This document shows, in pieces, positions 14,392-31,244 of a stretch of DNA of 64,000 nucleotides. The translations under genes and the position numbers were made by a program. Every line of letters starts with the position of its first letter. The first letter of the stretch is position 1. The notes under the pieces were generated by a model. The model saw only the letters and a program-made list of their open reading frames with translations. It searched no databases and was not told the DNA's origin. Origin of the DNA: Acidimicrobiales bacterium (GTDB lineage: Bacteria; Actinomycetota; Acidimicrobiia; Acidimicrobiales; MedAcidi-G1); assembly GCA_029245675.1 (NCBI GenBank), contig JAQWOV010000019.1, forward strand, positions 62,001 through 126,000. The letters are read 5' to 3'.

Positions 14392-14409
14392 TTGACAAAA
14401 TGTTGAAAT
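14392..14409. promoter_or_regulatory. Shared 18-bp operator candidate, copy 1 (regulator/XDH divergent promoter)
   Basis: TTGACAAAATGTTGAAAT occurs here and, identically, at 34046-34063. It is an imperfect palindrome (TTGACA-AAA-TGTTGAA). On the plus strand its TTGACA (14392-14397) is spaced 17 bp from CAGCAT (14415-14420), which is 8 nt before ATG 14429: a good promoter for the XDH run. On the minus strand TTGTCA-N16-TACTGT would serve the regulator. A factor binding here would therefore meet both promoters. The match is seen; function is inferred. Confidence 0.6.
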
Positions 14410-14428
14410 GCAGGCAGCATTAATACTT

Positions 14429-15280
14429 ATGCCAGTTACTGTCGCGCGCTCGCTTGATCATGCTTTAGCAGCTTTAGAGGAATGTCCAGAAGCCCTAATT
14501 CTGGCTGGCGGGACAGACGTGATGGTTCAAGTAAATAAAGGGTCCCTGTCTGTAGATCAAGTTGTAGCGATCGGCCGTGTGCCAGAACTTCAAGGATGGA
14601 GCAGGGAAGACGATTGGCTCCATCTCGGTGCTGGCGTTACTTATTCAGAGATGATGGGTAAAGAAATTTCTTCAATGGTGCCTGCTTTGGCTCAAGCGTC
14701 AAGAACGGTTGGATCTCCTCAAATAAGAAATGCAGGGACGATAGGTGGAAATTTGGGGACCTCATCACCTGCGGGAGACACTTTGCCAACCCTTTTTGCT
14801 TTGGAAGCGGTATTGACGATTCGGTCATCAGCTGGAATTCGGAAATTGCCGATAAATCAATTTGTTGTCGGAGTTAAACAGAATGCCCTTCAACCGGGGG
14901 AGTTGATTGAAAAAATTAGTGTTCCTGTTCTTGAAGGCTCTCAAGAATTTTGTAAAATTGGACCACGCAATGCAATGGTGATTTCAGTTGCGTCCTTCAC
15001 GCTTCTTACCGATGTGAAAGAAAATCAAGTTCGAAGTTGTTTAGGTACTGTTGGCCCGGTTCCGATTCGCCCCACGGAGGCTGAAAATCTTCTTTCAAAT
15101 GGTGTGGATTGGGGAAAAAATGAAGTTAGTTCTGAGGTTCTAGACGCATTTGCTTCATTATGTGCAGATGCAGCACAACCTATAGATGATCATCGTGGAT
15201 CAGCGGCATACCGTCGTCATGCAATTAAAATTTTATCCCGTCGCGCAGCATGCAGAATTTTCAGTGAGGGCAACTCATGA
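14429..15280 (+). CDS. Molybdenum hydroxylase, FAD-binding subunit (CoxM/XdhB type)
   Basis: Medium subunit of a xanthine-dehydrogenase-family enzyme that passes electrons from the [2Fe-2S] subunit through FAD. FAD motifs are LAGGTDVMVQV (about residues 30-40) and SRTVGSPQIRNAGTIGGNLGTSSPAGDTLP. The C-terminal CO-dehydrogenase flavoprotein domain follows, and ISVASFTL and CLGTVGPVPIRPTEAE are typical. Length of 283 residues is normal. ATG 14429 is favoured by the promoter spacing; ATG 14408 is possible. The next gene overlaps by 4 nt (ATGA). Confidence 0.9.
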   Translation: MPVTVARSLDHALAALEECPEALILAGGTDVMVQVNKGSLSVDQVVAIGRVPELQGWSREDDWLHLGAGVTYSEMMGKEISSMVPALAQASRTVGSPQIRNAGTIGGNLGTSSPAGDTLPTLFALEAVLTIRSSAGIRKLPINQFVVGVKQNALQPGELIEKISVPVLEGSQEFCKIGPRNAMVISVASFTLLTDVKENQVRSCLGTVGPVPIRPTEAENLLSNGVDWGKNEVSSEVLDAFASLCADAAQPIDDHRGSAAYRRHAIKILSRRAACRIFSEGNS

Positions 15281-15765
15281 GTAATGATTTTTACACTCTT
15301 AATGTAAACGGAAAAGATCATCAGGTTGCTGATTCTTGGGTGGGTGAAAGTTTGCTCTGGGTTCTACGGGAACGTTTGGGTTTCCCTGGAGCAAAGAACG
15401 CTTGTGAAGAAGGGGAGTGTGGATCGTGCTCGGTTCGGATAGGGGAAGAAGTCGTATGCAGTTGCCTAGTTTTGGCAGGATCAGCCATAGAACAAGACAT
15501 CACCACTATTGAAGGTCTTTCTGCTGAAGGAGAGTTAAGTGATGTTCAGCAAGCTTTTATAGATGCAGGTGCAGTTCAATGCGGTTTCTGTACCCCGGGT
15601 CTACTGGTCACTATTGATGACCTTTTAGAAAAAAATAAAAACCCTGATGATCTAACCGTGCGAGAAGCGATAAGTGGAAACTTGTGTAGATGTACTGGGT
15701 ATGGACGGATTCTTGAGGCAGTACAAATGGCTGCAGCTTCCCGAAGGGGAGAAAAACGTGAGTGA
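15277..15765 (+). CDS. Molybdenum hydroxylase, [2Fe-2S] subunit (CoxS/XdhC type)
   Basis: Small iron-sulfur subunit of 162 residues. The plant-type ferredoxin cluster is ACEEGECGSCSVRIG with a later Cys (EEVVCSCLV), and the second helical cluster is QCGFCTPGLL followed by GNLCRCTGYGRI. Both clusters have their full Cys sets. It starts at an ATGA overlap with the FAD subunit and its end overlaps the large subunit by 8 bases, so the three subunits are translationally coupled. Confidence 0.93.
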   Translation: MSNDFYTLNVNGKDHQVADSWVGESLLWVLRERLGFPGAKNACEEGECGSCSVRIGEEVVCSCLVLAGSAIEQDITTIEGLSAEGELSDVQQAFIDAGAVQCGFCTPGLLVTIDDLLEKNKNPDDLTVREAISGNLCRCTGYGRILEAVQMAAASRRGEKRE

Positions 15766-18034
15766 CGTAAAAACAGAAACACCTATTTCAAGTTTTCGAA
15801 TAGGAGACTCCGCTCCACGCCCGGACGGTATACCAAAAGTGAAGGGAACTTTCGCTTTTTCTAGTGACCTGTGGCATGAGAAAATGCTTTGGGGCGGGAC
15901 ACTTCGTTCCCCTTACCCGGCTGCTCGCATAAATAAATTAGATATCACTGAAGCGTTGCTTATTGATGGTGTGCATACAGTGCTTACGCATGATGATGTA
16001 CCAGGAGAGGCAGTGTATGGCCTAGAACATGCTGATCAGCCAGTTATGGCGGCGGAAGTGGTTCGGTATGAAGGAGAACCTGTAGCCATAGTTGCTGCGG
16101 ACCACCCTGAGATTGTCCGACGAGCGCTCGCTGCGATCAATGTTGAATATGAGGAAATGGTTCCATTAACCGACCCGGAGATAGCAGAGTCGGTAGGGCA
16201 CATTCATCCAGACGGAAATGTATTTCGCAAAATCAATCTTCGGCATGGAGATCAAGAAATACAAGGCGATATTCAAGTGGAAGGTGTCTATGAAGTTGGC
16301 ATGCAGGACCAAGCCTTTCTTGGTCCCGAATCAGGGCTCGCAGTGCCAGGAGAAGACGGAGGAGTTGATCTATATGTGTCAACTCAATGGTTACATGCAG
16401 ACCGGAGACAGGTTGCCTCCTGCCTAGGGATTAAAGAAGAAGATGTTCGTATTACTTTGGCTGGAGTGGGTGGGGCTTTCGGCGCTCGTGAAGACCTTAG
16501 TCTCCATGTCCATTTATGCATGCTTGCAATGAGAACAAATAGACCAGTCAAAATGATTTACTCTCGAGAAGAGTCCTTTCATGGTCATGTTCACCGCCAT
16601 CCGGCCAAGATGTGGTATCGACATCATGCAGACAGAGAGGGAAATCTTGTAAGAGTTGAGGCTCGAGTCTTACTTGACGGAGGAGCTTATGCATCTTCAA
16701 GTGGAGCAGTAATAGCGAACGCGGCATGTTTCGCTGGAGGCCCATACCGAATTCCTAATGCAAACATTGAAGGAATAGTGGTCAGAACAAACAACCCACC
16801 TTGCGGAGCGATGAGAGGGTTTGGGGCAGTGCAGACATGTATGGGGCATGAAGCACAAATGGACAAACTAGCTGTAGCCCTGAATGCGGATCCAGTAGAA
16901 ATACGTCTAAAGAACGCATTAAAAACAGGAGATCAGTTACTTACAGGTCAGATCATCACTGGTACGGCTCCGGTAGCAGAGGTGATTAGAACTTGCGCAG
17001 AACATGTTCCTTCTTCCCAAGAATCCTCAGATCTTATGTCCCTACCAGGTGGAGCAGGGCGTACTGCAGACCCGGAACATATTTCTCGTGGAGAAGCTAT
17101 AGCAGTCGGGTTCAAGAACTTAATGTTTTCAGAAGGTTTTGATGACTTCAGTTCAGCTGTGTGCCACTTAGAAGATGGAGTGGCAACCATTACGTGTGCT
17201 TGTGCAGAAGTCGGTCAAGGGTTCGTGACATTAGCTCAACAGATTACTCGCGAAATCCTTGGAGTAGAAGAAGTTATTTTGGCTCCTGCTGCAACTGAAA
17301 CAGTAGGTTCAGCTGGATCTACTTCTGCTAGCCGACAGACATGGATGTCAGGTGGAGCCGTGCAAAAAGCCTGCGAAGAGGTGCGCCTAAAGTTACTGCA
17401 AAGAATCACTGAAGAACATGAAATAAGCATTGATGATCTAGTCCTTGTGGAAGGGCAAGTGCTTTCGCTTAATGGGGACTTTTCCATAAGCATTGATGCA
17501 GCCTCGGAAAACCCCCTAGAGGCCAGAGTCGAATATAGACATGCTCCAACCTTCCCACTAGACGAAAATGGGCAAGGAGACGCCCATGTATCGTTTGCGT
17601 TTGCCGCGCATCGGGCAGTGGTTGATGTAGACCCTGAACTTGGTCTAGTGAAAGTAGTGGAATTAGTTACCTCACAAGATGTGGGTCGATTACTTAATCC
17701 TGTTCAAGCAATTGGACAACTTGAGGGAGGAGCTGCACAAGGTGTAGGGCTAGCTGTAATGGAAGAAGTCCTTGTTGCTGAAGGAAATATTCGAAATGCG
17801 TCTTTTACTGACTATCTGATTCCCACAGCTCTAGACATGCCTCCAGTTGAAATCGCAGCGATTATTGAACATCCAGAACCTGGCGCACCATTTGGAGCAA
17901 AAGGTATAGGAGAACCTCCCTCTATATCTTCAACTGCTGCGGTTGTAGCAGCTATACGCGAGGCGACGAACCTTGAACTTCCACGTGTTCCTGTACGACT
18001 TACCGACATAGTTTCGGTTGAGGAGTCGTCATGA
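15758..18034 (+). CDS. Molybdenum hydroxylase, molybdopterin-binding large subunit (xanthine dehydrogenase type)
   Basis: Catalytic subunit of 758 residues. Landmarks are the start RIGDSAPRPDGIPKVKGTFAFS, GVGGAFGAREDL (cofactor loop), CGAMRGFGAVQT (substrate Arg region), CAEVGQGF, VGSAGSTSASRQT and the catalytic Glu motif GAKGIGEPPS near the C terminus. No CO-dehydrogenase-type active-site Cys loop is seen, so xanthine- or other heterocycle-hydroxylase is more likely than CO dehydrogenase. GTG 15758, preceded by GGGGAG, is chosen because the RIGDSAPRPDG start of the domain follows; the open frame begins further upstream. It is followed by an ATGA overlap with the M20 gene. Confidence 0.9.
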   Translation: MSDVKTETPISSFRIGDSAPRPDGIPKVKGTFAFSSDLWHEKMLWGGTLRSPYPAARINKLDITEALLIDGVHTVLTHDDVPGEAVYGLEHADQPVMAAEVVRYEGEPVAIVAADHPEIVRRALAAINVEYEEMVPLTDPEIAESVGHIHPDGNVFRKINLRHGDQEIQGDIQVEGVYEVGMQDQAFLGPESGLAVPGEDGGVDLYVSTQWLHADRRQVASCLGIKEEDVRITLAGVGGAFGAREDLSLHVHLCMLAMRTNRPVKMIYSREESFHGHVHRHPAKMWYRHHADREGNLVRVEARVLLDGGAYASSSGAVIANAACFAGGPYRIPNANIEGIVVRTNNPPCGAMRGFGAVQTCMGHEAQMDKLAVALNADPVEIRLKNALKTGDQLLTGQIITGTAPVAEVIRTCAEHVPSSQESSDLMSLPGGAGRTADPEHISRGEAIAVGFKNLMFSEGFDDFSSAVCHLEDGVATITCACAEVGQGFVTLAQQITREILGVEEVILAPAATETVGSAGSTSASRQTWMSGGAVQKACEEVRLKLLQRITEEHEISIDDLVLVEGQVLSLNGDFSISIDAASENPLEARVEYRHAPTFPLDENGQGDAHVSFAFAAHRAVVDVDPELGLVKVVELVTSQDVGRLLNPVQAIGQLEGGAAQGVGLAVMEEVLVAEGNIRNASFTDYLIPTALDMPPVEIAAIIEHPEPGAPFGAKGIGEPPSISSTAAVVAAIREATNLELPRVPVRLTDIVSVEESS

Positions 18035-19290
18035 CTGATTTTCAATCTCTAAGAATTAATGGAGACCGCTTGATGCAACGCATTGAGGATCTGGCGACTA
18101 TTGGACCACATGAAGGTACTGGGTCCTGCCGTCTAGCGCTTACCGATGAAGATCGAGATGGGCGCGATCTCGTTGTCACTTGGATGAAAGATCTTGGTCT
18201 CGAAATAACAATTGATGGCATTGGAAATGTCATTGCCACCCGACCAGGGATCCTAGATGGACCACCAACTCTCACTGGCAGCCATATAGATACAGTCGCT
18301 ACAGGAGGTCGTTACGATGGAAATTTTGGGGTTCTCGCAGGAATTGAAATGATTGAAACGCTTGTAGAGAATGATATATCTACTCGTTACCCCGTAGGCG
18401 TCGCATTTTTTACTGATGAAGAGGGTGCTCGGTTCCCGCCAGACATGCTTGGCAGTTTGGTGTACGTCGGAGGGCTAGCACTAGAACAAGCTTTAGAGGT
18501 AGAAGGTATTGATGGTGCCATACTCGGAGAAGAACTTGATCGGATTGGATACCGCGGCGCAGCGCCATGCCCGGGGATTCCTCCACGAGCTTTTATTGAG
18601 TTGCATATAGAACAAGGACCGCTATTGGAAGATGAAGGCATCACCATCGGGACCGTCACGGGAGTGCAAGGAATATCATGGACTGAATATTCCATTAAAG
18701 GTCAGTCGAATCATGCCGGAACCACTCCGATGCATTTAAGACACGATGCCGGTTACGTTGCGGCTCGAATAACTACAGAAGCCAGAGACATCACTGAACG
18801 TATGGGTGGCCGACAAGTGGCAACTGTAGGAAGAATGCAATTTCAACCAGACCTAGTCAATGTCGTAGCACGCGAAGCACAATTAACAGTAGATCTGAGA
18901 AATACAGATGAGTCTTTATTAGTCAATGCAGAAAACCAAATGAAATCATGCATTAGTTCGCTAGAGGAGTCTGAGGGCGTCACCATTGATTCACGTTCAC
19001 TCGCTCGTTTTGAGCCAGTTGTATTTGATACGGAAGTGGCGGACATTATTTCTGAAACCTGTTCTCAATTAGGTCATTCTTCAATGACGATGCCTTCAGG
19101 AGCAGGGCACGATGCTCAGATGCTCGCAAGAGTATGTCCAACTGGAATGATATTTGTACCAAGCCAAAACGGTATTAGCCATAATCCGTCAGAACATACA
19201 GACCGTGAAGACTTGATAGCGGGGGCCAATGTCTTATTGCAATCAATATTGACTCTTGATGCCAAAGACCTACCAGGAGTTGAGCAGTGA
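18031..19290 (+). CDS. M20-family N-carbamoyl-L-amino-acid/allantoate amidohydrolase
   Basis: Dinuclear-metal hydrolase of 419 residues that removes a carbamoyl (ureido) group, releasing CO2 and ammonia. Metal ligands are in GSHIDTV (His), GRYDGNFGVLAG (Asp), FTDEEGARF (Glu pair), ELHIEQGP (His) and ISHNPSEHT (His). The lid segment SNHAGTTPM and SGAGHDAQML are very typical of HyuC/AllC proteins. Allantoate amidohydrolase, ureidoglycolate-type and hydantoin-derived N-carbamoyl-L-amino-acid hydrolases cannot be told apart here. It lies directly between a xanthine-dehydrogenase-type enzyme and the D-carbamoylase, overlapping both (ATGA and GTGA). Confidence 0.88.
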   Translation: MTDFQSLRINGDRLMQRIEDLATIGPHEGTGSCRLALTDEDRDGRDLVVTWMKDLGLEITIDGIGNVIATRPGILDGPPTLTGSHIDTVATGGRYDGNFGVLAGIEMIETLVENDISTRYPVGVAFFTDEEGARFPPDMLGSLVYVGGLALEQALEVEGIDGAILGEELDRIGYRGAAPCPGIPPRAFIELHIEQGPLLEDEGITIGTVTGVQGISWTEYSIKGQSNHAGTTPMHLRHDAGYVAARITTEARDITERMGGRQVATVGRMQFQPDLVNVVAREAQLTVDLRNTDESLLVNAENQMKSCISSLEESEGVTIDSRSLARFEPVVFDTEVADIISETCSQLGHSSMTMPSGAGHDAQMLARVCPTGMIFVPSQNGISHNPSEHTDREDLIAGANVLLQSILTLDAKDLPGVEQ

Positions 19291-20225
19291 GTCGAATAGT
19301 AACCGTTGGGGCGGCACAAACTGGGCCAATACAAGAAACAGATTCTCGCAACGAAGTAGTTGAGAGGCTTATTAATTTACTACGCGAGGGAAGTCGAGCC
19401 GGTTGTGATCTCGTGGTTTTCCCAGAGTTAGCTCTCACAACATTTTTCCCACGATGGTATGTGGACGACAAGAAAGAATTTGACCATTATTTTGAAAAAG
19501 AAATGCCTAGTCCAGAGACGAAACCTCTTTTTGATGAAGCAAAAAGACTAGGAGTTGGATTTCATCTCGGTTATGCAGAACTCACCCCTAAAGGCGAGCA
19601 CTTCAACACCTCTGTACTCGTTGATAAAGCGGGGGATATCATCGCCCACTATCGGAAGGTGCATTTGCCCGGACATGAAGAGCATGAACCATGGAGAGCA
19701 TTTCAACACCTTGAGCGGTATTACTTTGACCCGGGCCCAGGCTTTGAAGTACACGCTGCATTCGGGGGGATAATGGGTATGGCGATTTGTAATGATCGAC
19801 GATGGCCAGAAACTTATCGGGTTCTGAGTTTACAAGGCTGCGAAATGGTACTTATTGGTTACAACACACCCGTACATTATGCGCCAGATCCGAATCAAGA
19901 TCGTCTACAAGGATTCCACAACCATTTAGTTTTACAGGCAGGCGCCTATCAGAATGGCATGTGGGTGGTAGGCGTAGCTAAAGCAGGAGAAGAAGAAGGA
20001 TGTGACCTGTTGGGAGAAAGCGCAATCATTGGACCCTCTGGTGAAATAAAGGCTCTTTGTTCTACGGTTGGAGATGAGTTAGTTGTCGCTGACTGTGATC
20101 TCGACCTATGTGCTGACTACAAAGAAACCCTTTTCAACTTTTCTCGGTATCGCCGTCCAGAGGTTTATACCCGCATCACTAGCCAAATTGGGGTCGAAAT
20201 CCCTGAGACACTTAAGGAAAGTTAG
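19287..20225 (+). CDS. N-carbamoyl-D-amino-acid hydrolase-like carbon-nitrogen hydrolase
   Basis: Nitrilase-superfamily enzyme of 312 residues. The catalytic triad is Glu in FPELALTTF, Lys in HYRKVHLPG and Cys in AICNDRRWPETYRV. The stretch after the Cys (GYNTPVHYAPDPNQD, LQAGAYQNGMWVVGVAKAG, and FNFSRYRRP near the end) follows the Agrobacterium D-carbamoylase closely, more so than beta-ureidopropionase or nitrilase. It would open N-carbamoyl-D-amino acids to D-amino acid, CO2 and ammonia. GTG 19287 overlaps the M20 stop by 4 nt, so the L- and D-type carbamoylases are coupled. No hydantoinase is next to them. Confidence 0.85.
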   Translation: MSRIVTVGAAQTGPIQETDSRNEVVERLINLLREGSRAGCDLVVFPELALTTFFPRWYVDDKKEFDHYFEKEMPSPETKPLFDEAKRLGVGFHLGYAELTPKGEHFNTSVLVDKAGDIIAHYRKVHLPGHEEHEPWRAFQHLERYYFDPGPGFEVHAAFGGIMGMAICNDRRWPETYRVLSLQGCEMVLIGYNTPVHYAPDPNQDRLQGFHNHLVLQAGAYQNGMWVVGVAKAGEEEGCDLLGESAIIGPSGEIKALCSTVGDELVVADCDLDLCADYKETLFNFSRYRRPEVYTRITSQIGVEIPETLKES

Positions 20226-20231
20226 TTTCAC

Positions 20232-22814
20232 ATGACCACATTCAATTTAAATGGAGATTCAGTCACAGTTGAAGGGGAACATCCGCACCTTTTATCTGCG
20301 TTAAGAGAAGAATTAAACATTCTTTCTCCTAAAGATGGATGTTCTCCCTCAGGGCAATGTGGATGCTGCACAGTTCTTATTGACGGTAAAGCCAGAGTTG
20401 CTTGTCAAATGTCAATGGAACGTATTGAGAATACCTCTGTATTGACATTAGAAGGTATAGAAGAAGAAGAACGAGAACGATATGCGTCGGCATTCGCTGC
20501 TCATGGGGCGCTTCAATGCGGATTCTGTATCCCAGGTATTGTGGTGCGCGCAAAGGCTTTAGTTGACAAAAAAGCTGAGACCATTACCCGGAATGATTTG
20601 GAACGTCACCTTGGTGCTCACTTATGTCGATGCACCGGGTATACAAAAATTTTGGAGGCAGTTGAATCTATTGCAGCGAAAGAGATACCGAAAGAGACTC
20701 CAGTAGGTGGTATTGGGAGTTGCAATCGGAAATATGAAGCTGAAGAACTCGCATTAGGAGATCGCCCTTATATCGATGATTTAAAACCTGAGGGTTTGTT
20801 ACACGGAGCAGTGCATCTTGCAAGTCATGCAAGGGCTGAAGTTGTGAAAATCGATACAACCGAAGCAGAAAAAATAGACGGGGTTTATCAAGTTTTTACA
20901 GCAGCAGACGTACCTGGGGAACTTCGGGTAGGCATCATCCATACCGATTGGCCGGTCTTCATACCTGAAGGCGGGCGAACCTCGTACTTAGGGGATGTCA
21001 TTGCTCTTGTTGTGGCGACGGATCGAGAAACAGCACGTCATGCCGCAACTTTAGTAAAAGTTGAGTACACCCCATTAAGAGTATTTAATGACCCGGTTAT
21101 AGCTGCAAAATCTGACGAAGACGCTGTTTGGGGGCTTGATGGAAATATATTGTCAGTCTCTACATATACAAGAGGTGATGTTGAAGAAGCACTCGCAGCA
21201 TCAGAACATGTAGTTGAGGAAGTATTCCAGACGCAACGCATTGAGCATGCGTTCTTAGAACCAGAGTCAACTTTGGCAGCTCCAGATGGAGAAGGAAAGC
21301 TCTATGTTTGGTCTGGCGGTCAAGGGATTTGGGATGACCGTAATCAAATTGCTTCAGTGTTAGATATTGAAACTACGGATATCACTGTTGAACTTGTCTC
21401 AAATGGAGGAGCATTTGGCGGTAAAGAGGATATGTCAAATCAGGCGCAAACAGCCTTGGCGGCGTGGATTTTGAAAGCTCCTGTCAGATGCACTCTTTCT
21501 CGTGAAGAATCTTTCCTCATGCACGCCAAACGTCACCCCATAAGAATGGCCTACAAAGCAGGATGCGATAGTCAAGGGCAACTACAAGCGCTTTGGGTGA
21601 GGATGATTGGTGACTCAGGACCGTATGCATCGGTTGGGATGAAGGTATTGGAGCGAGCAGCAGGACATGCAAGTGGCCCCTACGTAGTTCCAAATATAGA
21701 TGTTGAAGCCACCGCAGTCCGCACAAACAATCCGGTCTGTGGAGCCTTTCGCGGTTTCGGAGCTAATCAAGCGCAATTTGCTATGGAAGGTGTTATTGAT
21801 CGATTAGCGGAAAAAGTAGGAATAAGTGGTTGGGAGATGCGCAACCGGAATGTGATCAGTCCAGGAGCAGTTTGGGGCCCCGGACAAATAATGGATGACG
21901 GGTGTCTTGGTGCCCAAGCTTGCTTAGACGAAGTTAAAGAATCCTATGAACAGGCAATAGCGAAAGGCAAGGCAGTAGGAATTGGATTAGGTCTCAAAAA
22001 CTCTGGACTTGGAAATGGATTTAAAGAAATCGCACAAGCGGTCGTTCATTTTCGAGACGACGGGCAAGTTGAAGTTCGACATTGCTGGACAGAGATGGGT
22101 CAAGGCATTCACACTGTGGCGCAACAAGTCGCAGTAGAAGAACTCAAGATAGACCCTTCGCTCATTGAGGTGATTGTGGACACCACAAGAGAAATGGGAG
22201 CTGGTCAGACCACTGGAAGCCGAGGAACGCTAATGGGGGCCGGAGCAGTAGCAGATGCTTGTCAGATAGCTCTTGAAGATGGGTGCAGAATTGGTGTTGA
22301 TTATCTTGGCGAATATCGGGTTGATTGGACCAACTCTCTTAATGATGGTGTAGAAAATCCTATTATTCATTCAACATTTGGATATGCCGCACAAGTCGTT
22401 GTTATTGATCCTGACACGGGAGATGTTGAGGAAGTCATCGCAGCACATGATGTTGGAAGAGCAGTTAATCCCGTGTTATGTGAGGGTCAAATCCAAGGAG
22501 CAGTCCATATGGGTCTGGGCTATGCCTTAACTGAAGGATTTCCAGTTGACGAGAACTCGTACCCAGTGAACAACACTCTTCGCAAATTGGGAATTATTAG
22601 ACCCAGCGGTATGCCAAAAGTGGATGTTCGACTTGTTGAGTCCCCTCAACCAAACGCTCCATATGGCATTAAAGGTGTTGGAGAAATCGGTTTGGTACCA
22701 ACTGCTGGCGCCGTGGCTGCAGCATTAAAAAAACATGATGGGGAATGGCGCAGTATTCTCCCATTAACAGAACTCAAACAACAAGAACAATGGTCGGACT
22801 GGGATGGAAGCTAG
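20232..22814 (+). CDS. Fused xanthine-dehydrogenase-type molybdenum hydroxylase (XdhD / selenium-dependent-type)
   Basis: Fusion protein of 860 residues: N-terminal [2Fe-2S] part (GCSPSGQCGCCTVLIDGKARVAC, then LQCGFCIPGIV and HLCRCTGYTKI, residues 1-150), a short linker, and a molybdopterin part from about 175 to the end. Catalytic landmarks are GGAFGGKEDM, CGAFRGFGANQAQF, TEMGQGIHT and GIKGVGEIGLVP (catalytic Glu). The order matches the XdhD-like / selenium-dependent-hydroxylase class of about 850-950 residues that commonly pairs with SsnA, encoded directly after it here with no intergenic base. It has no FAD domain; the FAD subunit at 14429 may serve it, or another partner may. No internal UGA suggests selenocysteine; a labile Se ligand would not show in the gene. 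Confidence 0.85.
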   Translation: MTTFNLNGDSVTVEGEHPHLLSALREELNILSPKDGCSPSGQCGCCTVLIDGKARVACQMSMERIENTSVLTLEGIEEEERERYASAFAAHGALQCGFCIPGIVVRAKALVDKKAETITRNDLERHLGAHLCRCTGYTKILEAVESIAAKEIPKETPVGGIGSCNRKYEAEELALGDRPYIDDLKPEGLLHGAVHLASHARAEVVKIDTTEAEKIDGVYQVFTAADVPGELRVGIIHTDWPVFIPEGGRTSYLGDVIALVVATDRETARHAATLVKVEYTPLRVFNDPVIAAKSDEDAVWGLDGNILSVSTYTRGDVEEALAASEHVVEEVFQTQRIEHAFLEPESTLAAPDGEGKLYVWSGGQGIWDDRNQIASVLDIETTDITVELVSNGGAFGGKEDMSNQAQTALAAWILKAPVRCTLSREESFLMHAKRHPIRMAYKAGCDSQGQLQALWVRMIGDSGPYASVGMKVLERAAGHASGPYVVPNIDVEATAVRTNNPVCGAFRGFGANQAQFAMEGVIDRLAEKVGISGWEMRNRNVISPGAVWGPGQIMDDGCLGAQACLDEVKESYEQAIAKGKAVGIGLGLKNSGLGNGFKEIAQAVVHFRDDGQVEVRHCWTEMGQGIHTVAQQVAVEELKIDPSLIEVIVDTTREMGAGQTTGSRGTLMGAGAVADACQIALEDGCRIGVDYLGEYRVDWTNSLNDGVENPIIHSTFGYAAQVVVIDPDTGDVEEVIAAHDVGRAVNPVLCEGQIQGAVHMGLGYALTEGFPVDENSYPVNNTLRKLGIIRPSGMPKVDVRLVESPQPNAPYGIKGVGEIGLVPTAGAVAAALKKHDGEWRSILPLTELKQQEQWSDWDGS

Positions 22815-23834
22815 ATGAACACCTCTCCAGGGCTTGTGTGTTCTCATCATCATCTTTATTCATCGCTAGCTCGTGGAATGCCCCCTCCTCCCTACACAGC
22901 TAAAGGATTTACAGAAATTTTGGAGACAGTTTGGTGGCGACTTGACCAAGCTTTGGATTTAGAAATACTTCACTGGTCAGCAAAGCTTGGTGCTTTAGAA
23001 GCACTAGAGCAAGGAACGACTGCCATCATTGACCACCACGAATCGCCGACAGCGATAGAAGGTTCACTTTCTGTAATTGCTGAAGCTTGCGCCGAAGTAG
23101 GAGTCCGAGTGAACTGCGCATATGGCGTGACAGATCGACACGGACCTGAAGGAGCAAAACGTGGTTTAGCCGAGAACGAAAGATATCTAAAGAATGGCGG
23201 GCATGGCATGGTAGGAGTTCATGCTGCTTTTACCTGCAGCGAAGAAACTCTTGAGTCTGCTGCTCAACTTGCTTCTGAACTTGATGTAGGTGTCCATATT
23301 CATGTAGCCGAAGGGAAAGTAGATGCTGGAGCAGCAGAACGATTAAAGAACCTCACAGAGGAAAACTGGCTCATTATTCATGGCGTTCATTTAGAAGATG
23401 ATCATGAGTTAAGTGGAACTATTGTTCACAATCCAAGATCAAATATGAATAATGGCGTTGGCTACGCCAACCCAACTAGATTCAAGAATAAAATTACATT
23501 AGGAACAGACGGTATTGGTGCAAACATGCTGGAAGAATTCCGTCTCGCGTACGCTCGTCATCGAGAAAATGATGTTACAGCCACACCAGAAATTTCTTGG
23601 GAATGGTTGTCTGCTGGATGGGATTTATTCCCAGAAGCAATAGATGACAAAGTGACATGGAACTACGACCACATAGATCCATGGCATCTTGCCTACACAA
23701 CTGGAACAAGACCAGTCGAGATAGAAATAGGCGATGAAGTAGTCTGGAAAGACGGAAAATCTACTCGAGTGGACGAAAGTGAAGTAAGAGCCAAATCTGC
23801 AGAAGCGGCCAGGAAACTTCACCAAAGATTATAA
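22815..23834 (+). CDS. ssnA: SsnA-like amidohydrolase lacking the usual N-terminal strand region
   Basis: Metal-dependent deaminase-type TIM-barrel protein of 339 residues. It begins almost at the HxH motif ([17 protein letters not shown]), so the approximately 50-60 residues that normally precede it in SsnA are missing. The rest tracks E. coli SsnA well: [50 protein letters not shown] and [13 protein letters not shown]. All expected metal ligands (HxH, two later His, Asp) are present, so it is probably active. SsnA's substrate is uncertain in the family. ATG 22815 directly follows the stop of the fused hydroxylase. Confidence 0.82.
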
Positions 23835-23865: not shown

Positions 23866-24867
23866 ATGACGCGGTTAGCTATCTACTTACAAGACGCTCA
23901 TCCAATAACGGAAGCAATTGAATATGTGCAATACGCAGAAGAAAAAGGATTTGAAGCTGTGTGGCAAGCAGATTCAAGACTGGTTCGCGATGCAGTGGTA
24001 CCGATGGCAGCCTTCGGAGCTTGCACCGAAACTATAAAAATTGGATCTGGAGTAGTTGACTGCTGGACACGTAATCCAGCACGACTTGCTTCAACGTTTT
24101 CAACACTGGATGATCTTGCGCCCGGCCGCATGATCTTAGGTATAGGAGCTTGGTGGGATCCGCTTGCCAGCAAAGTGGGTATTGAAAGAAACAAACCACT
24201 AGGAGTTATGAGAGAAATCATAACTGCAGTAAGGGCTCTCTTAGCAGACGAAACTGTCACGTTCAAAGGTGATTTTGTGAACTTAGATGGAGTCGAACTT
24301 GATTACGTCTATCAAGAGCGCCGACCAAAAGATGTTCCTATTTACATCGGCGCAACTGGGCCCAAGATGCTTGAACTGTCTGGAGAAATTGCAGACGGAG
24401 TTGTGCTTAATTATTTAGTCTCTCCTGAATACAACAAGAAAGCTATGCAGTCTCTAGAAGATGGAGCGGCACGAGCTGGAAGAAGCCTTGATGACGTAGA
24501 CCGCCCTCAGTTAGTAGTGTGCTCGGTGGCAGACACCCGCGAAGAAGCGCTGGATGGCGCTCGATTGATGGTTACGCAATATTTAGGTCAACAGCCACAC
24601 ATCATGAAAGCATCCGGGGTGCCCGAATCCCTTCTTGAAGAAATCGGAAAAGTTTTAACATGGCCAGCGACTCACGAGCAAGTAGAAGCAGCCTCCAAGC
24701 TTGTCCCAGACGACATCGTTCAAATGATCTGTGCAGCTGGAACGCCTGACGAGGTTCGAGAAAAAGTTGCCCAATATATGGCTGATGGGTGCACGTGCCC
24801 CATTCTGTATCCGTTGGGTCCAGATGTAAAGAAAATGGTAGATGTGTTTGCCGACTGGACCCCCTGA
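23866..24867 (+). CDS. LLM-class F420-dependent-type oxidoreductase
   Basis: Luciferase-like TIM-barrel flavin/F420 enzyme of 333 residues. It starts [78 protein letters not shown] and [33 protein letters not shown] are hallmarks of the methylene-tetrahydromethanopterin-reductase-like F420 group. It sits between two amidohydrolases in the island, so it may act on the same heterocycle, perhaps in ring reduction or opening (inference). The Shine-Dalgarno is AAAGAAAGAG. FMN use instead of F420 remains possible. Confidence 0.8.
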
Positions 24868-24872
24868 TCACT

Positions 24873-26171
24873 ATGTCACGACTCATTTTACGCGGTGCCA
24901 GATTTCCCGGAGATATAGCGATTGAAAACGGAAAGATCACAGCTCTAGGAACAATCGAGGTTCTAAGCGGAGACTCTGTACTTGACTGTGAAGGGGACAT
25001 AGTCACTGCAGGTTTAGTCAACACCCATCACCATCTTTACCAGTGGATGACACGTGGCGAAGCGACTGGTTGCAATCTCTTTGACTGGTTAGTCCATCTG
25101 TACCCTGTTTGGAACGAATTAACAGTAGAAGATGTTTATATAGCTGCCTTAGTGGGACTTGGAGAATTAGCGGCCACAGGGTGCACAACTGCCTCAGATC
25201 ATCATTACCTAGTGCCCGGAGGTGATGACAGGGTATTTGACGCAATCGTTGAAGCTTCTAAACAAGTGGGGATCCGCTTGTTCCTGTCCCGTGGTTCAAT
25301 GGATTTAGGGGAGAGTAAAGGCGGCCTACCACCAGATCGGGTAGTAGAAGATAGAGACTCAATACTTTCTTCAACAAAATCCATTGCAGAACGTCACCAC
25401 GACGGAGACATGGTTCATGTAGTAGTAGCTCCTTGTAGTCCTTTTTCAGTTACAACAGAATTGATGGTTGAATCAGCAGAACTAGCTCGTGAATTGGGAC
25501 TACGGTTACACACTCATCTCTGTGAAACACCTGAAGAACAGCAACACTGCTTAGAACGATTTGGTCGTCGGCCAGTTGAGATGCTTGACGAGTGGGGTTG
25601 GGTCGGTAGCGATGTTTGGTTAGCTCATGGGATACACATAGATGATGCAGAGATGAAAGTCCTTGGTTCAGCTGGAACAGGCGTAGCTCACTGTCCCTCT
25701 TCAAATGCTCGTATCGCTGCAGGAATGTGCAGAGTTACTGACTTGATAAAAGCAGGAATTCCAGTCGGGCTAGGAGTAGACGGAGTTGCTTCGAATGAAG
25801 TTGGAGGATTATTTCCAGAAATGCGTCAAGCTCTTTACACAGCACGCCTACGAGAGATGCGACCAGATGCCCTTATGCCAGAAGAAGTGTTAGCAATAGC
25901 GACACAAGGCGGATCTCGGTGTTTAGGAATGCAAAACTCTGGGACGTTAGAGATCGGGCAAAATGCCGATATTGCAGTATGGCCAGGTAGCGACATAGCA
26001 GATATTCGTAACCCTATAGACGGACTCGTTTTAGGGCCTGATCGTCGCGCAAAGCATGTTTTGGTAAACGGGAACCTAGTAGTGGAAGATGGACAAGTGC
26101 TTGGAACTGACTTACCTAAAGCTCATGAAGACTTAGCTAAACATGCGCGACGGATTTGGAAATACAACTAA
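24873..26171 (+). CDS. 8-oxoguanine-deaminase-like amidohydrolase
   Basis: Protein of 432 residues. Metal and active-site motifs are NTHHHLYQWMTRG, LHTHLCETPEEQ, WLAHGIHIDD and LGVDGVASNEVG. The segments NLFDWLVHLYPVWNEL, GCTTASDHHYLVPGG, RGSMDLGESKGGLPPD and APCSPFSVTTELM are a near-textbook signature of 8-oxoguanine deaminase and hydroxy-atrazine hydrolase relatives. The N- and C-terminal beta strands (LILRGARFP, LVNGNLVVEDGQ) make a full-length amidohydrolase, unlike the SsnA-like neighbour. It would convert 8-oxoguanine to urate plus ammonia. I use ATG 24873, 5 nt after the previous stop. Confidence 0.85.
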   Translation: MSRLILRGARFPGDIAIENGKITALGTIEVLSGDSVLDCEGDIVTAGLVNTHHHLYQWMTRGEATGCNLFDWLVHLYPVWNELTVEDVYIAALVGLGELAATGCTTASDHHYLVPGGDDRVFDAIVEASKQVGIRLFLSRGSMDLGESKGGLPPDRVVEDRDSILSSTKSIAERHHDGDMVHVVVAPCSPFSVTTELMVESAELARELGLRLHTHLCETPEEQQHCLERFGRRPVEMLDEWGWVGSDVWLAHGIHIDDAEMKVLGSAGTGVAHCPSSNARIAAGMCRVTDLIKAGIPVGLGVDGVASNEVGGLFPEMRQALYTARLREMRPDALMPEEVLAIATQGGSRCLGMQNSGTLEIGQNADIAVWPGSDIADIRNPIDGLVLGPDRRAKHVLVNGNLVVEDGQVLGTDLPKAHEDLAKHARRIWKYN

Positions 26172-26440: not shown

Positions 26441-26497
26441 AATCTTTTTGCCTGAAAGATGCATAATTACTGAGAATATGCCAAGATAGCCATGCAT

Positions 26498-26540
26498 CAA
26501 CGCGGGTTGTCGGAGGGTTGTAGGGTCTCCACCCGTATTG
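26498..26540 (+). promoter_or_regulatory. Structured 5' leader candidate upstream of the BMP binding protein
   Basis: A nested stem-loop: CAA (26498-26500) pairs with TTG (26538-26540); CGGGT (26503-26507) pairs with ACCCG (26531-26535); GGAG (26512-26515) pairs with CTCC (26527-26530), enclosing the 11-nt loop 26516-26526, with a TGTC bulge on the 5' side. It ends 4 nt before the Shine-Dalgarno sequence AGAGGGAG (26544-26551). GGGTTGT occurs twice in the 5' arm and loop. A possible promoter is TTGAAA (26437) with CATAAT (26462). I could not match it to a known riboswitch class. Confidence 0.45.
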
Positions 26541-26557
26541 AGCAGAGGGAGAAAATA

Positions 26558-27643
26558 ATGAGACGTCGTCTACTGATGCTATTAGCCGTCGTCCTTACCT
26601 TTGGAGCTGTGGCTTCAGCTTGTGGTTCGGATGATGATGGTAGCAGTGATGTAAAGGCCGCATTTGTTTACATTGGTACACCTGGAGATGCTGGGTGGAC
26701 CTATGCACACGATCAAGGCCGACTAGCGGCTGAAGAAGCAACAGGAGCAACTACACAAGTTGTTGAGAATGTTCCTGAAGGAACAGAAGATTTCGCTAAC
26801 TATGCTCGCGAATTCATCGATGATGGGTATTCAGTAATCATTGGTACGTCATTTGGATATATGGAGTCAATGGCAGCATTGGCTGACGAGTACCCAGACG
26901 TCGTATTTGACCATATTTCTGGTTACATGAGCAATGAAACCAACTTTGGTAATACTTTTGGGCGGATGTATGAGCCGCGTTATCTATCAGGAATGGTTGC
27001 CGGTGCTATGACCGAAAGTAATCACCTCGGTTACGTTGCAGCGTTCCCAATTCCTGAAGTTATTCGTGGAATCAATGCTTTCACTCTTGGTGTACGGTCA
27101 ATGAACCCAGATGCCGAGGTTGAAGTGATTTGGACCAGCACTTGGTTTGACCCAGCAGTTGAAGGCGACTCTGCGCAAGCCCTAATTGAAAAGGGTGCAG
27201 ACGTTATAGCCATGCATCAAGACAGTACCGCAGCAGGCGAAAGAGCTGAGGCGGCAGGCGTTCGATGGGTTGCCTACAACTCTGACATGAGTGCTTTTGC
27301 ACCAAATGCTCACCTGACTGCTCCGGTTTGGGATTGGTCCAACCGTTATGCTCAGATTATTGAGCAAGCCGCAGATGGAACTTATTCCGGCGGATCATGG
27401 TGGGGATCAATGGCTGACGGAGTTGTAGCTTTAGCTCCGATCGCTGATGATGTTCCTGGTGATGTACAAGCAGCAGTAGCAGACTCGCAACAAGCCATCA
27501 TTGATGGAGAACTCCATGTATTTGCTGGACCTATTAATGCTCAAGACGGCAGTGTTCTAGTTGCTGCTGGAGAGACAATGAGTGACGGCGACATGCTCGG
27601 CATGATGAGCTTCGTTGAAGGCGTAATTGGATCAACAGGCTGA
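26558..27643 (+). CDS. BMP-family (nucleoside-type) ABC transporter substrate-binding lipoprotein
   Basis: Lipoprotein of 361 residues: signal segment MLLAVVLTFGAVASAC with lipobox ASAC followed by an acid-rich spacer. The body resembles BmpA/PnrA/Med proteins: FVYIGTPGDAGWTYAHDQG, EFIDDGYSVIIGTSFGYMES, GNTFGRMYEPRYLSGMVAGAM and GADVIAMHQDSTAAGERAEAAG. The start ATG 26558 has the Shine-Dalgarno AGAGGGAG. It is the first gene of the importer operon and lies next to the purine-type catabolic genes, so a purine nucleoside or base is the likely ligand (inference). A strong hairpin follows it. Confidence 0.9.
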   Translation: MRRRLLMLLAVVLTFGAVASACGSDDDGSSDVKAAFVYIGTPGDAGWTYAHDQGRLAAEEATGATTQVVENVPEGTEDFANYAREFIDDGYSVIIGTSFGYMESMAALADEYPDVVFDHISGYMSNETNFGNTFGRMYEPRYLSGMVAGAMTESNHLGYVAAFPIPEVIRGINAFTLGVRSMNPDAEVEVIWTSTWFDPAVEGDSAQALIEKGADVIAMHQDSTAAGERAEAAGVRWVAYNSDMSAFAPNAHLTAPVWDWSNRYAQIIEQAADGTYSGGSWWGSMADGVVALAPIADDVPGDVQAAVADSQQAIIDGELHVFAGPINAQDGSVLVAAGETMSDGDMLGMMSFVEGVIGSTG

Positions 27644-27664
27644 CGCCAGTATTTGATTTGATTG

Positions 27665-27696
27665 ACGGCGTCAGTGGGTTAGCCCGCTGACGCCGT
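27665..27696 (+). terminator. Strong intercistronic hairpin downstream of the BMP protein gene
   Basis: ACGGCGTCAGTGGG (27665-27678) and CCCGCTGACGCCGT (27683-27696) form a 14-bp stem with one G-T pair and a TTAG loop. No T-tract follows, so it is not a classical terminator but could partially terminate, process or protect the upstream mRNA and so raise the binding-protein dosage. A second copy of CTGACGCC at 27640-27647, overlapping the stop of the BMP gene, could pair with the 5' arm instead and allow alternative folds. Confidence 0.55.
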
Positions 27697-27727
27697 TAGC
27701 GCGTCTACACGGTAAATTAATTTGATT

Positions 27728-29242
27728 ATGACTTCTGATTCCCCACTAGCTATCGAGTTAGTTGACATTTGGAAACGTTTCCCCGGTGTGGTTGCTAATG
27801 CGGGGGCCACTTTGAGGGTCAAAAAAGGAACGATACACGCTGTACTTGGTGAAAATGGAGCGGGAAAATCAACCTTAATGAATATTCTTTCTGGGGTTTA
27901 CAGACCAGACGAAGGTCAAGTACGCATCAATGGAGAGCAACACTGGTTTCATTCTCCTTCAGATGCCTTAGCTTCTGGTATTGGCATGGTTCATCAAGAA
28001 TTCCGACTGGTTCCTTCATTCACAGTCGCCGAAAATATCGTTCTTGGCGCCTCAGAGAAAATTATTAGACGGAGTTTCATTGAGAAAGAAGTAGAGCAAA
28101 TAGCCCAACAATTTGGACTTGCTATAGATCCAACACGACCTGTATGGCAGCTCTCAATGGGAGAACGACAGCGCGTAGAGATTCTCAAAACATTATGGCG
28201 GAAAGCACAGATATTAATTCTGGATGAACCAACAGCAGTATTAACTCCAGCAGAGGCAGACGAACTTGGAAAAGTCTTGCGAAAAATAGCTGAAGATGGT
28301 CGAACAGTTGTATTTATAAGCCATAAATTACATGAAGTTACCGCTTTCTGCGATGAAGCAACAGTGCTCCGCGGAGGTAAAACAGTTGCTTCCTCTTTGA
28401 AAGTAGAAGAAGTAAATGAAAGTGATTTAGCCGGCCTCATGGTCGGTTCATCGCCCATGATTAGCGAGAGGCCTCCTTATCAAGAACCAGGTGAGGCGAT
28501 GTTAACTATAGAAGGACTTGGAACGCTAGACGATAGATTCCTTCCCGCCGTAAAAAATCTGAATTTGACGATAAAAAGTGGCGAAATAGTAGGTATCGCC
28601 GGAGTTTCTGGCAATGGTCAACGAGAAATGGCCCAAGCTATAGCTGGCTTAAGGCCAATTACATCAGGAAAAGTGACTATCTCCGGTAAAGATCTTACAA
28701 ATGCTCCACCCTCAGAACGCTTCACTGCAGGGCTTGGTTATGTTCCTGAAGACCGGCTAGGAGTAGGACTGGCTCCTCGCTTAACCGTCACTGAAAATGC
28801 AATTTTACGATGCTACAAAAATTTAAGGAAAAGCATTTTTCTTGTTTCTGAACAGGCAGTGAACTATTGCAAAGAAATAATTGAACGATTTGGAGTAAGA
28901 ACCGGACCGATAGATGAACCAATAGCTGGTCTATCAGGCGGGAACCTTCAAAGACTTTTAGTTGGTAGAGAGTTAAGCGGGAACCCAAAAGTAGTCCTAG
29001 CGGCACAACCTACTCGGGGATTAGACGTACAAGGTGTGAAAGCAATTCAAGACTTGCTTATAGATGAACGCACCGAAGGAGTAGCAGTACTTTTGATTTC
29101 TGAAGATCTCGATGAATTGCTTACACTTTCTGACCGATTACTAGTCATGCACGAGGGAGAAATAGTAAAAGAATTTGATCCTACGACCGCCCATCGGCAC
29201 GATATCGGAGCAGCGATGGCAGGCAAAAGAGACGAATCATGA
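27728..29242 (+). CDS. Nucleoside-type ABC transporter ATPase (two fused nucleotide-binding domains)
   Basis: Protein of 504 residues with two NBDs. NBD1 has Walker A GENGAGKSTL, signature LSMGERQRVEILK and Walker B ILILDEPTAVL. NBD2 has a degenerate Walker A (GVSGNGQREMAQA) with signature LSGGNLQRLLVGREL and a Walker-B-like KVVLAAQPTRGLD in which the normally conserved acidic pair is replaced by Ala-Gln. This asymmetry is usual in RbsA/MglA- and NupO-type importers. ATG 27728 is used; an in-frame TTG lies 6 nt upstream. Operon with the binding protein and the two permeases. Confidence 0.92.
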   Translation: MTSDSPLAIELVDIWKRFPGVVANAGATLRVKKGTIHAVLGENGAGKSTLMNILSGVYRPDEGQVRINGEQHWFHSPSDALASGIGMVHQEFRLVPSFTVAENIVLGASEKIIRRSFIEKEVEQIAQQFGLAIDPTRPVWQLSMGERQRVEILKTLWRKAQILILDEPTAVLTPAEADELGKVLRKIAEDGRTVVFISHKLHEVTAFCDEATVLRGGKTVASSLKVEEVNESDLAGLMVGSSPMISERPPYQEPGEAMLTIEGLGTLDDRFLPAVKNLNLTIKSGEIVGIAGVSGNGQREMAQAIAGLRPITSGKVTISGKDLTNAPPSERFTAGLGYVPEDRLGVGLAPRLTVTENAILRCYKNLRKSIFLVSEQAVNYCKEIIERFGVRTGPIDEPIAGLSGGNLQRLLVGRELSGNPKVVLAAQPTRGLDVQGVKAIQDLLIDERTEGVAVLLISEDLDELLTLSDRLLVMHEGEIVKEFDPTTAHRHDIGAAMAGKRDES

Positions 29243-30315
29243 AACGTCTAGTACTGGTTCGCCGGGAACAACCACTCCGAGGAGGGCAACCTCTTTCATT
29301 CTTAATCGGCCTAGTAGTTGCCTTACTGGCAGGAATACTGCTACTGGTTGCTTCCGGTCACAATCCAATTGAAATCTATGAACGACTATTTAACTCTTCC
29401 GTAGGCAGTTCCAATGCATGGGCTAAAACACTCAATCGTGCAGTTCCTCTAGGACTGGCAGGGCTCGCCGTTGCAGTCGCTGGAAGCATGGGGCTATGGA
29501 ATATTGGTGCTGAAGGTCAAATTCTTGCTGGAGCAATGATGGCAGCTTGGATAGCGCAAATAGGTGAAGGATGGGCTAGCCCGTTACTGATTCCATTGAT
29601 GCTCATCGCTTCCATTCTTGGGGGGGCGTTACTTGCATCTGGACCTGGTATCGCCCGAGCTCAGATCGGTGTAAATGAAATCATTACAACACTTATGCTC
29701 AATGAAGTCGCATTAAGGCTTTTACAGTGGCTCATACACGGACCTTGGAAAGATCCTGAATCTCGAGGGTTTCCATTAGCCCCATTACTTGCAGATGAAG
29801 CACGGCTACCTAAACTCTTCGGAAGAGCTCATTGGGGCGTAATTATTGCTTTTTTAGTCATAGCATTCTTTGGATTTATAGTTAGTCGCACAGCCTGGGG
29901 ATACGAGCTAAAAGTTGCAGGCTCCTCAGGAGCAACCGCCCGCTATGCCGGTATTTCTTTAAATAAAAAAATCATCACAGTTATGGTGCTAAGCGGAGGC
30001 ATAGCAGGCTTAGCAGGCGGAATTGAATTATCAGGAACTTCAGACAGGATTGTTGAAGGAGTATCAGGAGGCTACGGATTCGCTGGGATCATTGTTGCAG
30101 CACTTGCGTTAATGCGGCCCTCAGGAGTCGCTGCAGTTGCCCTTATCTTTGGTGCAGTGCAAGTCGGAGGTTTAAGCATCCAAACTCTAGGAGTCTCATC
30201 TTCTGTATCCACTATCCTTCAGGCTCTTATTCTCTTTGGAGCAATCGGAGCTGGAGTTTTCAATCGGTATAGCTTGAAAAGCGTAAAACGTGAGAAGAAA
30301 GGCGGCTCGACATGA
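29239..30315 (+). CDS. Nucleoside-type ABC transporter permease 1 (NupP/YufP-like)
   Basis: Protein of 358 residues with about 9-10 transmembrane segments. AVPLGLAGLAVAVAGSMGLWNIGAEGQILAGAM is the standard signature of BMP-system permeases and RARAQIGVNEIITTLMLNEVAL is typical of the NupP branch. It starts at an ATGA overlap with the ATPase gene, and the next permease overlaps its end in the same way. Confidence 0.92.
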   Translation: MKRLVLVRREQPLRGGQPLSFLIGLVVALLAGILLLVASGHNPIEIYERLFNSSVGSSNAWAKTLNRAVPLGLAGLAVAVAGSMGLWNIGAEGQILAGAMMAAWIAQIGEGWASPLLIPLMLIASILGGALLASGPGIARAQIGVNEIITTLMLNEVALRLLQWLIHGPWKDPESRGFPLAPLLADEARLPKLFGRAHWGVIIAFLVIAFFGFIVSRTAWGYELKVAGSSGATARYAGISLNKKIITVMVLSGGIAGLAGGIELSGTSDRIVEGVSGGYGFAGIIVAALALMRPSGVAAVALIFGAVQVGGLSIQTLGVSSSVSTILQALILFGAIGAGVFNRYSLKSVKREKKGGST

Positions 30316-31244
30316 ATGAAGCATCAATGATTGGAATGCTTAGCACCACGGTCTCATTCGGCGCCCTTTTATACCTTGCATGCATAGGAGAACTTATCTC
30401 TGAAAAAGCCGGAGTCTTAAATCTAGGAGTAGAAGGAATGATGGCGCTAGGCGCGGTAACAGGATTTCTAGTTGCTCTCAATACCGAAAACCCTTGGTTG
30501 GCCTTACTCGTCGCAATGATCGTCACTGCCGCATTCGCTTCAATCCACGGAATATTTACCGTCGTGCTAGGGGCAGAACAGGTTGTCTCAGGCTTATCAC
30601 TTACCTTCTTAGGTTTAGGACTCTCCGCATTTTTTGGCAAGAGCGCTGTTGGTAACCCACCAGGAGCAATACTTTCAAATGTCGATTGGGGGCCACTCTC
30701 GGACATACCTTGGGTTGGACCGATTCTTTTCCAGCAGTCACCAATGGTTTATTTCGCAATTTTTGTTGGGCTTCTAACTTCATTCTTACTAACTCGCACC
30801 AGCATCGGCCTCGCTCTTCGTGGAGCAGGAGAATCTGCTTCGACTGTAGATACAGCAGGCTACTCAGTAGTTAAAATACGACTCGCAGCAGTCGCCACTG
30901 GCGGAGCTTTAGCAGGCGCAGCAGGCGCGTATTTGACCTTAAGTATTACTACCTCATGGCAAGACGGTGCTACTGCGGGACGAGGCTGGATTGCTGTAGC
31001 ACTGGTCATCTTTGGAGCTTGGAAACCAGGGCGGGCCGCAATAGGGGCTCTCTTATTTGGCGGATTACTAGCACTTAAGACACGCTTACAAACATTCGGA
31101 GTTAATTTCTCACCAATCCTGCTCTCAATGATTCCCTATCTGCTCACCATTGGAGTGCTCCTAATCATCTCCATTAGAGCACGACACCGCCCATCAGCTT
31201 CACCCTCTGAAATCGGAAAGGTTTATCGGCGGGAAGAAAGGTAA
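30312..31244 (+). CDS. Nucleoside-type ABC transporter permease 2 (NupQ/YufQ-like)
   Basis: Protein of 310 residues with about eight transmembrane segments. LISEKAGVLNLGVEGMMALGAVTGF, HGIFTVVLGAEQVVSGLSLTFLGLGLSAF and GRGWIAVALVIFGAWKPGRAAIGALLFGGLLA are the NupQ-class hallmarks. It completes the importer: binding lipoprotein, double ATPase and two different permeases. The operon ends only 6 bases before the stop of the convergent PLP-enzyme gene; I see no obvious terminator between. Confidence 0.92.
   Translation: MNEASMIGMLSTTVSFGALLYLACIGELISEKAGVLNLGVEGMMALGAVTGFLVALNTENPWLALLVAMIVTAAFASIHGIFTVVLGAEQVVSGLSLTFLGLGLSAFFGKSAVGNPPGAILSNVDWGPLSDIPWVGPILFQQSPMVYFAIFVGLLTSFLLTRTSIGLALRGAGESASTVDTAGYSVVKIRLAAVATGGALAGAAGAYLTLSITTSWQDGATAGRGWIAVALVIFGAWKPGRAAIGALLFGGLLALKTRLQTFGVNFSPILLSMIPYLLTIGVLLIISIRARHRPSASPSEIGKVYRREER

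Follow-up and report, generated by a model that had tools for sequence, protein, structure and literature searches.

The window, which is the whole 64,000-nucleotide stretch of contig JAQWOV010000019.1 from an Acidimicrobiales bacterium that was analysed, contains a short SsnA-like amidohydrolase gene in a run of genes on the forward strand. The features of this region are listed below, with profile scores and model cut-offs in bits where available.

14408..18034, + strand, three-gene xanthine dehydrogenase (XDH) with FAD, Fe-S and molybdenum subunits (molybdenum subunit, pucD 819.9, cut-off 783.65)
18031..19290, + strand, hydantoinase/carbamoylase family amidase, candidate ureido-group hydrolase (TIGR01879 396.8, cut-off 204)
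19287..20225, + strand, carbon-nitrogen hydrolase, candidate ureido-group hydrolase (PF00795)
20232..22814, + strand, fused Fe-S/molybdopterin XDH-like enzyme, candidate urate-to-yanthine reductase (TIGR03311 809.9, cut-off 830.45)
22812..22814, + strand, TAG with which the XDH-like gene ends, immediately before the ATG of short SsnA (sequence; relatives)
22815..23834, + strand, short SsnA-like amidohydrolase of 339 amino acids without the N-terminal strand segment (open reading frame, profile, fold model, relatives)
23866..24867, + strand, luciferase-type, F420-dependent-like oxidoreductase (LLM), candidate yanthine reductase (PF00296; nearest NCBIfam model PRK02271 207.4, cut-off 276)
24876..26171, + strand, 8-oxoguanine deaminase-type amidohydrolase, its own N-terminal segment present (PRK08203 539.6, cut-off 532)
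26492..31244, + strand, PnrA-like ABC transporter (binding protein, ATPase, two permeases), candidate for purine/nucleoside uptake
31251-32459 and 32459-34021, - strand, two adjacent PLP fold type II enzymes (PF00291; far under all NCBIfam cut-offs)

The three-gene XDH at 14408-18034 is the second XDH in the gene run of the fused one. The presence of two suggests that one serves xanthine oxidation and the other urate reduction.

The ATG at 22815 lies directly 3′ of the TAG at 22812-22814, so that the frame is closed at once. The first-pass annotation had described this gapless junction correctly. It had also set the frame start two residues before the PGLVCSHHH region; the start position stands, while the number of residues is four (MNTS). 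The TAG/TAA-ATG junction was likewise found in all five same-genus relatives with the gene. A sequencing error at 22810-22820 as the cause of the short frame is excluded by the relatives. No frame extends the gene, as had been stated, and upstream or alternative starts were rejected in the window and in its relatives.

The protein matched PF01979 (Amidohydro_1) with 91.7 bits against a gathering cut-off of 25. It also carries the metal site of the amidohydrolase superfamily, with HxH, two later histidines and an aspartate. Its two best NCBIfam models were those of SsnA (TIGR03314/PRK07203), both below their curated cut-offs (243.6 against 455.5 bits and 264.3 against 444 bits). These scores are little above half of the cut-offs because the match covers only model positions 58-59 to 339-340 of 441-444. 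The absence of the N-terminal strand segment, proposed from the sequence of the window, thus agrees with the profiles, which match only from position 58-59. By curated cut-offs and domain content the protein is outside standard SsnA, and it was filed as a short variant.

A search of named genomes gave at least 572 relatives, of which the best 80 were kept; these were hence chosen for their likeness to the window gene. Most were titled Acidimicrobiia or kin, with a few Nitriliruptoraceae or Thermoanaerobaculia. Counted from G6 in the GLVC motif up to the stop, all of the 80 best loci have 333-345 residues. An in-frame stop occurred at most 49 codons before G6 in 42 of the 80, and of the 59 loci with an XDH-like gene upstream, 53 had its stop no more than 92 nt before G6; one or the other, an upstream stop or a near XDH-like end, was present in 69 of the 80. 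From 17 full-length SsnA, a profile was made of the N-terminal segment and run against the in-frame codons, at most 80, that precede G6. Leave-one-out controls recovered 17 of 17 full-length SsnA at E 6e-6 or better. Upstream of the 80 short loci the segment was not found, the best value being E 0.29 (4.0 bits), and no upstream start was detected in these relatives. Alignment and scan thus bear out the expectation that close relatives share the short form: the N-terminal composite-domain strands were missing from the window gene and from each of the 80 best of at least 572 relatives. One aligned short locus out of 32 (L027, 7366-8442) has a 21-residue insertion after the TDRH motif.

A truncation artefact, a pseudogene or a sequencing error is hardly credible given this constant length in 80 of 80 best loci from many assemblies, together with the invariant active site and the conserved gene run described below. 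The missing segment is confirmed as a genuine feature of the gene.

Of 61 genomes of relatives, 41 carried the gene with an identity of at least 62%. In a phylum sample of 296 genomes, 31 matched at 1e-40. Read by eye, with the full-length match in G093 left unread, these comprised 13 short forms (at least 62% identity) and 18 full-length forms (40-53%). The latter align with the short protein only up to residue 248-319; full-length forms carry the N-terminal strand segment. In a tree of 34 short and 32 long rows, the short forms made up one clade with support of 96/99. Fourteen of the 32 long rows, in tree and alignment alike, are duplicates of genes already present under another locus id, leaving 18 distinct. 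The short clade sits beside long SsnA in this tree, which has one distant outgroup and an uncertain rooting, and the branch leading to it is long (0.93). Closest family and tree position both point to SsnA. Full-length actinobacterial SsnA were found in XDH-SsnA-LLM clusters (for example, L145 and L155) with a similar gene run. Where they match the short protein, identity is 40-53%, but these proteins of about 440 amino acids have the N-terminal strands and fall outside the short clade.

H11, H13, H161, H163, E166, H189, D232 and D73-H75, which we take to be the metal ligands and catalytic residues, did not vary in any of the 81 short or 32 long rows (18 of the long ones distinct). The first-pass annotation had thus been right that all metal ligands remain. 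Compared with E. coli SsnA (b2879; TIGR03314/PRK07203), the metal and catalytic residues and the DHH motif are identical and the HNxRSN motif nearly so. Missing from the short form are the first 56 or so residues of the E. coli protein and its residues 190-193, 237-245, 252-253, 273-277, 353-364 and 383-389.

The AlphaFold2 model of the short protein (pLDDT 82.4, pTM 0.86) consists of a TIM barrel and three C-terminal strands at 279-282, 300-305 and 308-312. Its best solved matches were deaminase/chlorohydrolase-type amidohydrolases. Superposed over the whole length, it gave Z 36.1 over 335 residues with both 8is4 and 7ww2. Barrel and C-terminal strands superpose on the triazine hydrolase, isocytosine deaminase and adenosine deaminase-like structures 7ww2, 3ls9, 4f0s and 1p1m with Z 35.6-36.1 and 22-25% identity. 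Residue 1 of the model falls between their residue 45 (1p1m) and 83 (7ww2), and the N-terminal segment of these structures has no counterpart in the short protein. Adenosine deaminase and class II dihydroorotase are described as amidohydrolase barrels without a composite domain. These enzymes belong to other lineages, whereas short SsnA retains the C-terminal half of the domain.

The absent E. coli stretches 353-364 and 383-389 lie on either side of the first retained C-terminal strand (279-284), so the composite domain has been shortened in both halves. Stretches within the barrel are shorter as well, after residues 172, 178 and 197. The retained strands differ in polarity. In long forms these strands carry hydrophobic residues at successive positions; in short forms, Leu at 279 has become mostly Arg, Val at 281 mostly Thr, and position 304, mostly Met in long forms, is often Glu. 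Positions 280, 282, 303 and 305 are hydrophobic in short forms too. Hydrophobic-to-polar columns numbered 5 of 17 at 278-312 and 6 of 66 elsewhere (Fisher p 0.04), a modest excess in columns that are not independent; three of the five (279, 281 and 304) are in strands and two outside. This comparison was redone without the 14 repeated long rows, and a stronger value of p 0.002 obtained with them was dropped. We read the polar shift as exposure of the face that formerly met the N-terminal strands, a face assigned from residue alternation.

The missing strands might be supplied by a protein partner, namely the XDH-like protein, the LLM or YgfK-like reductase or a second short SsnA, giving an active hetero- or swapped oligomer. 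We regard this as improbable. The gene order is tight: of the 79 loci with enough sequence, 56 have an XDH-like gene at most 250 nt upstream, and 44 of 80 have an LLM gene at most 200 nt downstream, both among the best 80 of at least 572. The fused XDH was linked to short SsnA in 60 of these 80 loci. Seventeen genomes from the 20 loci without a linked fused XDH were tested, and 14 had it elsewhere (12 at 64% identity or more, two at 52%), which favours a partner. It was not found in the other three, which counts against one, though these are draft assemblies of unstated completeness. A common pathway explains the co-occurrence of XDH and short SsnA as well as contact does. A precedent is offered by Aquifex dihydroorotase, described in PMC3880350 as inactive alone and active when joined to ATC, though its composite domain is present.

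The first-pass annotation had suggested the 20232 product as strand donor. To model the pair, the single stop was read as a residue, giving one chain of 1200 amino acids. This read-through model (pTM 0.65, about that expected, by estimate, of the XDH part alone) showed the same three C-terminal strands at lower confidence. No new strand appeared in the SsnA part, in a model that came without a contact map and from a shallow paired alignment in which only 5 of 33 rows pair both proteins. None of the 59 loci with an upstream XDH-like gene is an in-frame fusion. A 1249-residue open frame in G038 looked like a natural XDH-SsnA fusion but is merely stop-free, with short-form starts near the motif, and the apparently fused loci L049 and L085 are reading-frame artefacts. 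The strand residues turned polar also speak against the 20232 product, as against any lent strand set. A reductase is an unlikely donor of specific strands because the LLM or YgfK-like partner is exchangeable, as described below. The alternating polar and hydrophobic residues and the shrunken loops would suit an exposed single sheet better than strands lent by a partner. We infer that the remaining sheet is self-sufficient, that it is exposed on the face that formerly met the N-terminal strands, and that the enzyme does the job of SsnA.

The gene context was compared over the 80 best of at least 572 loci. Of these loci, 53 have an LLM gene and 17 a YgfK-like one; none has both, and 10 have neither. 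In a subset of 45 of these loci with wide flanks, the corresponding numbers were 32, 9, 0 and 4. According to a quick tree, the reductase partner changed most simply five times, and at least three times by well-supported branches. A carbon-nitrogen hydrolase was linked in 46 of the best 80 loci, a hydantoinase/carbamoylase amidase in 43, HyuA in only four and YgeY in none. The 17 YgfK-like genes differ in extent: seven align with almost the whole of E. coli YgfK, one is cut off by the contig end, and nine (L063, L067, L081, L087, L090, L092, L095, L112 and L114) cover just the first 40% of YgfK plus a short piece around residues 898-983. Further reduced YgfK-like genes (first 40%) lie near short SsnA at L159 (425.5 bits) and L161 (418.5 bits); the cut-off of the YgfK model is 835.3. 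One locus, L158, unites short SsnA, XDH, HyuA, LLM, YgeX and YgeW. Among 14 full-length SsnA loci, some of them cut short, XDH-like genes occurred in 11, LLM in nine and 8-oxoguanine deaminase in five; HyuA, YgeW, YgeX or YgeY stood beside some of them.

According to PMC12507026, E. coli XdhD converts urate to yanthine, and YgfK and SsnA together convert yanthine to ureidomethyl-hydantoin; neither single enzyme had detectable activity on yanthine. The same source describes Chloroflexota clusters in which a putative F420 enzyme of the luciferase family replaces YgfK or UacX. The gene 3′ of short SsnA in the window belongs to that luciferase family. The neighbours of short SsnA, XDH-like together with YgfK-like or LLM genes, resemble those of SsnA and include the XDH-type and yanthine-reductase candidates. 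On present evidence, the short protein appears to behave like SsnA.

Short SsnA is most probably the ring-opening hydrolase in a proposed reductive urate pathway of Acidimicrobiia. In the proposed route, the XDH-like protein would convert urate to yanthine (2,8-dioxopurine). The F420/luciferase-type neighbour, or the YgfK-like flavoprotein in other loci, would reduce the pyrimidine ring of yanthine. Short SsnA would then hydrolyse the reduced ring to ureidomethyl-hydantoin and so pull the unfavourable reduction forward, and the hydantoinase and ureido hydrolases would complete the breakdown. A search limited to uricase found none in 31 genomes; 2 of 14 control genomes had one. We put at roughly two in three the probability that the protein is a naturally minimal SsnA, with a full TIM barrel and a composite beta-sandwich cut to one C-terminal strand layer, and with the role of SsnA in reductive urate breakdown. 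Against this reading stand the scores below the SsnA cut-offs (264.3 and 243.6 bits), the modest polar excess at 278-312 and the gaps in the gene set: of the best 80 loci, only four have a linked HyuA, none a linked YgeY and 10 neither reductase, and YgeX had no match in the genome of the window. The single strong HyuA match in this genome is a dihydropyrimidinase on another contig, in an apparent pyrimidine cluster. By their translations, the genes of L166 (G000 contig 24, 6687-12804) encode a carbon-nitrogen hydrolase, an aminotransferase, a dihydropyrimidinase, an aldehyde dehydrogenase and a luciferase-type oxidoreductase, of which only the dihydropyrimidinase was profile-scanned; we read them as a probable reductive pyrimidine-breakdown set. 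Since no YgeX was found, the PLP enzymes at 31251-32459 and 32459-34021 are possible candidates for a diaminopropionate step. The former has matches in 16 of 26 genomes, its own included, three of them weak or partial.

The protein might instead be of SsnA ancestry but act on another substrate, for example in deamination of a purine product, with the domain loss as part of the shift. The branch of 0.93, the shortened stretches after residues 172, 178 and 197, tryptophans specific to short forms at 262, 282 and 290 and the scarcity of linked HyuA (4 of the best 80 loci) are in its favour. Aligned short rows also have Glu at 76 where long rows have Ala, yet this position is Ser or Ala in L021, L158 and L159. 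This alternative has to contend with full-length SsnA elsewhere in like company (of 14 loci, some cut short, 11 have an XDH-like gene and nine an LLM gene) and with the exchange of LLM for YgfK-like genes beside short SsnA, and we think it rather unlikely.

A minimal SsnA for urate breakdown remains the preferred reading. The protein is best read as a new, short version of the known enzyme SsnA; no paper that we recognised as treating a short SsnA was found among those listed from the incomplete literature collection searched. More speculatively, short SsnA may have given up the domain since it is docked in a urate-reducing assembly of uricase-free Acidimicrobiia, in which the XDH-like protein, the F420/flavin reductase and SsnA hand on labile reduced yanthine and the exposed C-terminal sheet is the docking face; this is a long shot.

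The short form suggests that half of the composite domain is dispensable in SsnA-type amidohydrolases, and it offers a compact enzyme for testing. In the loci compared, F420/luciferase-type and YgfK-like reductases replace each other next to one and the same SsnA and never overlap, so that the proposed F420-dependent yanthine reductase can be tested directly. Their exchange also suggests that many Acidimicrobiia, including marine ones, have a reductive urate pathway.
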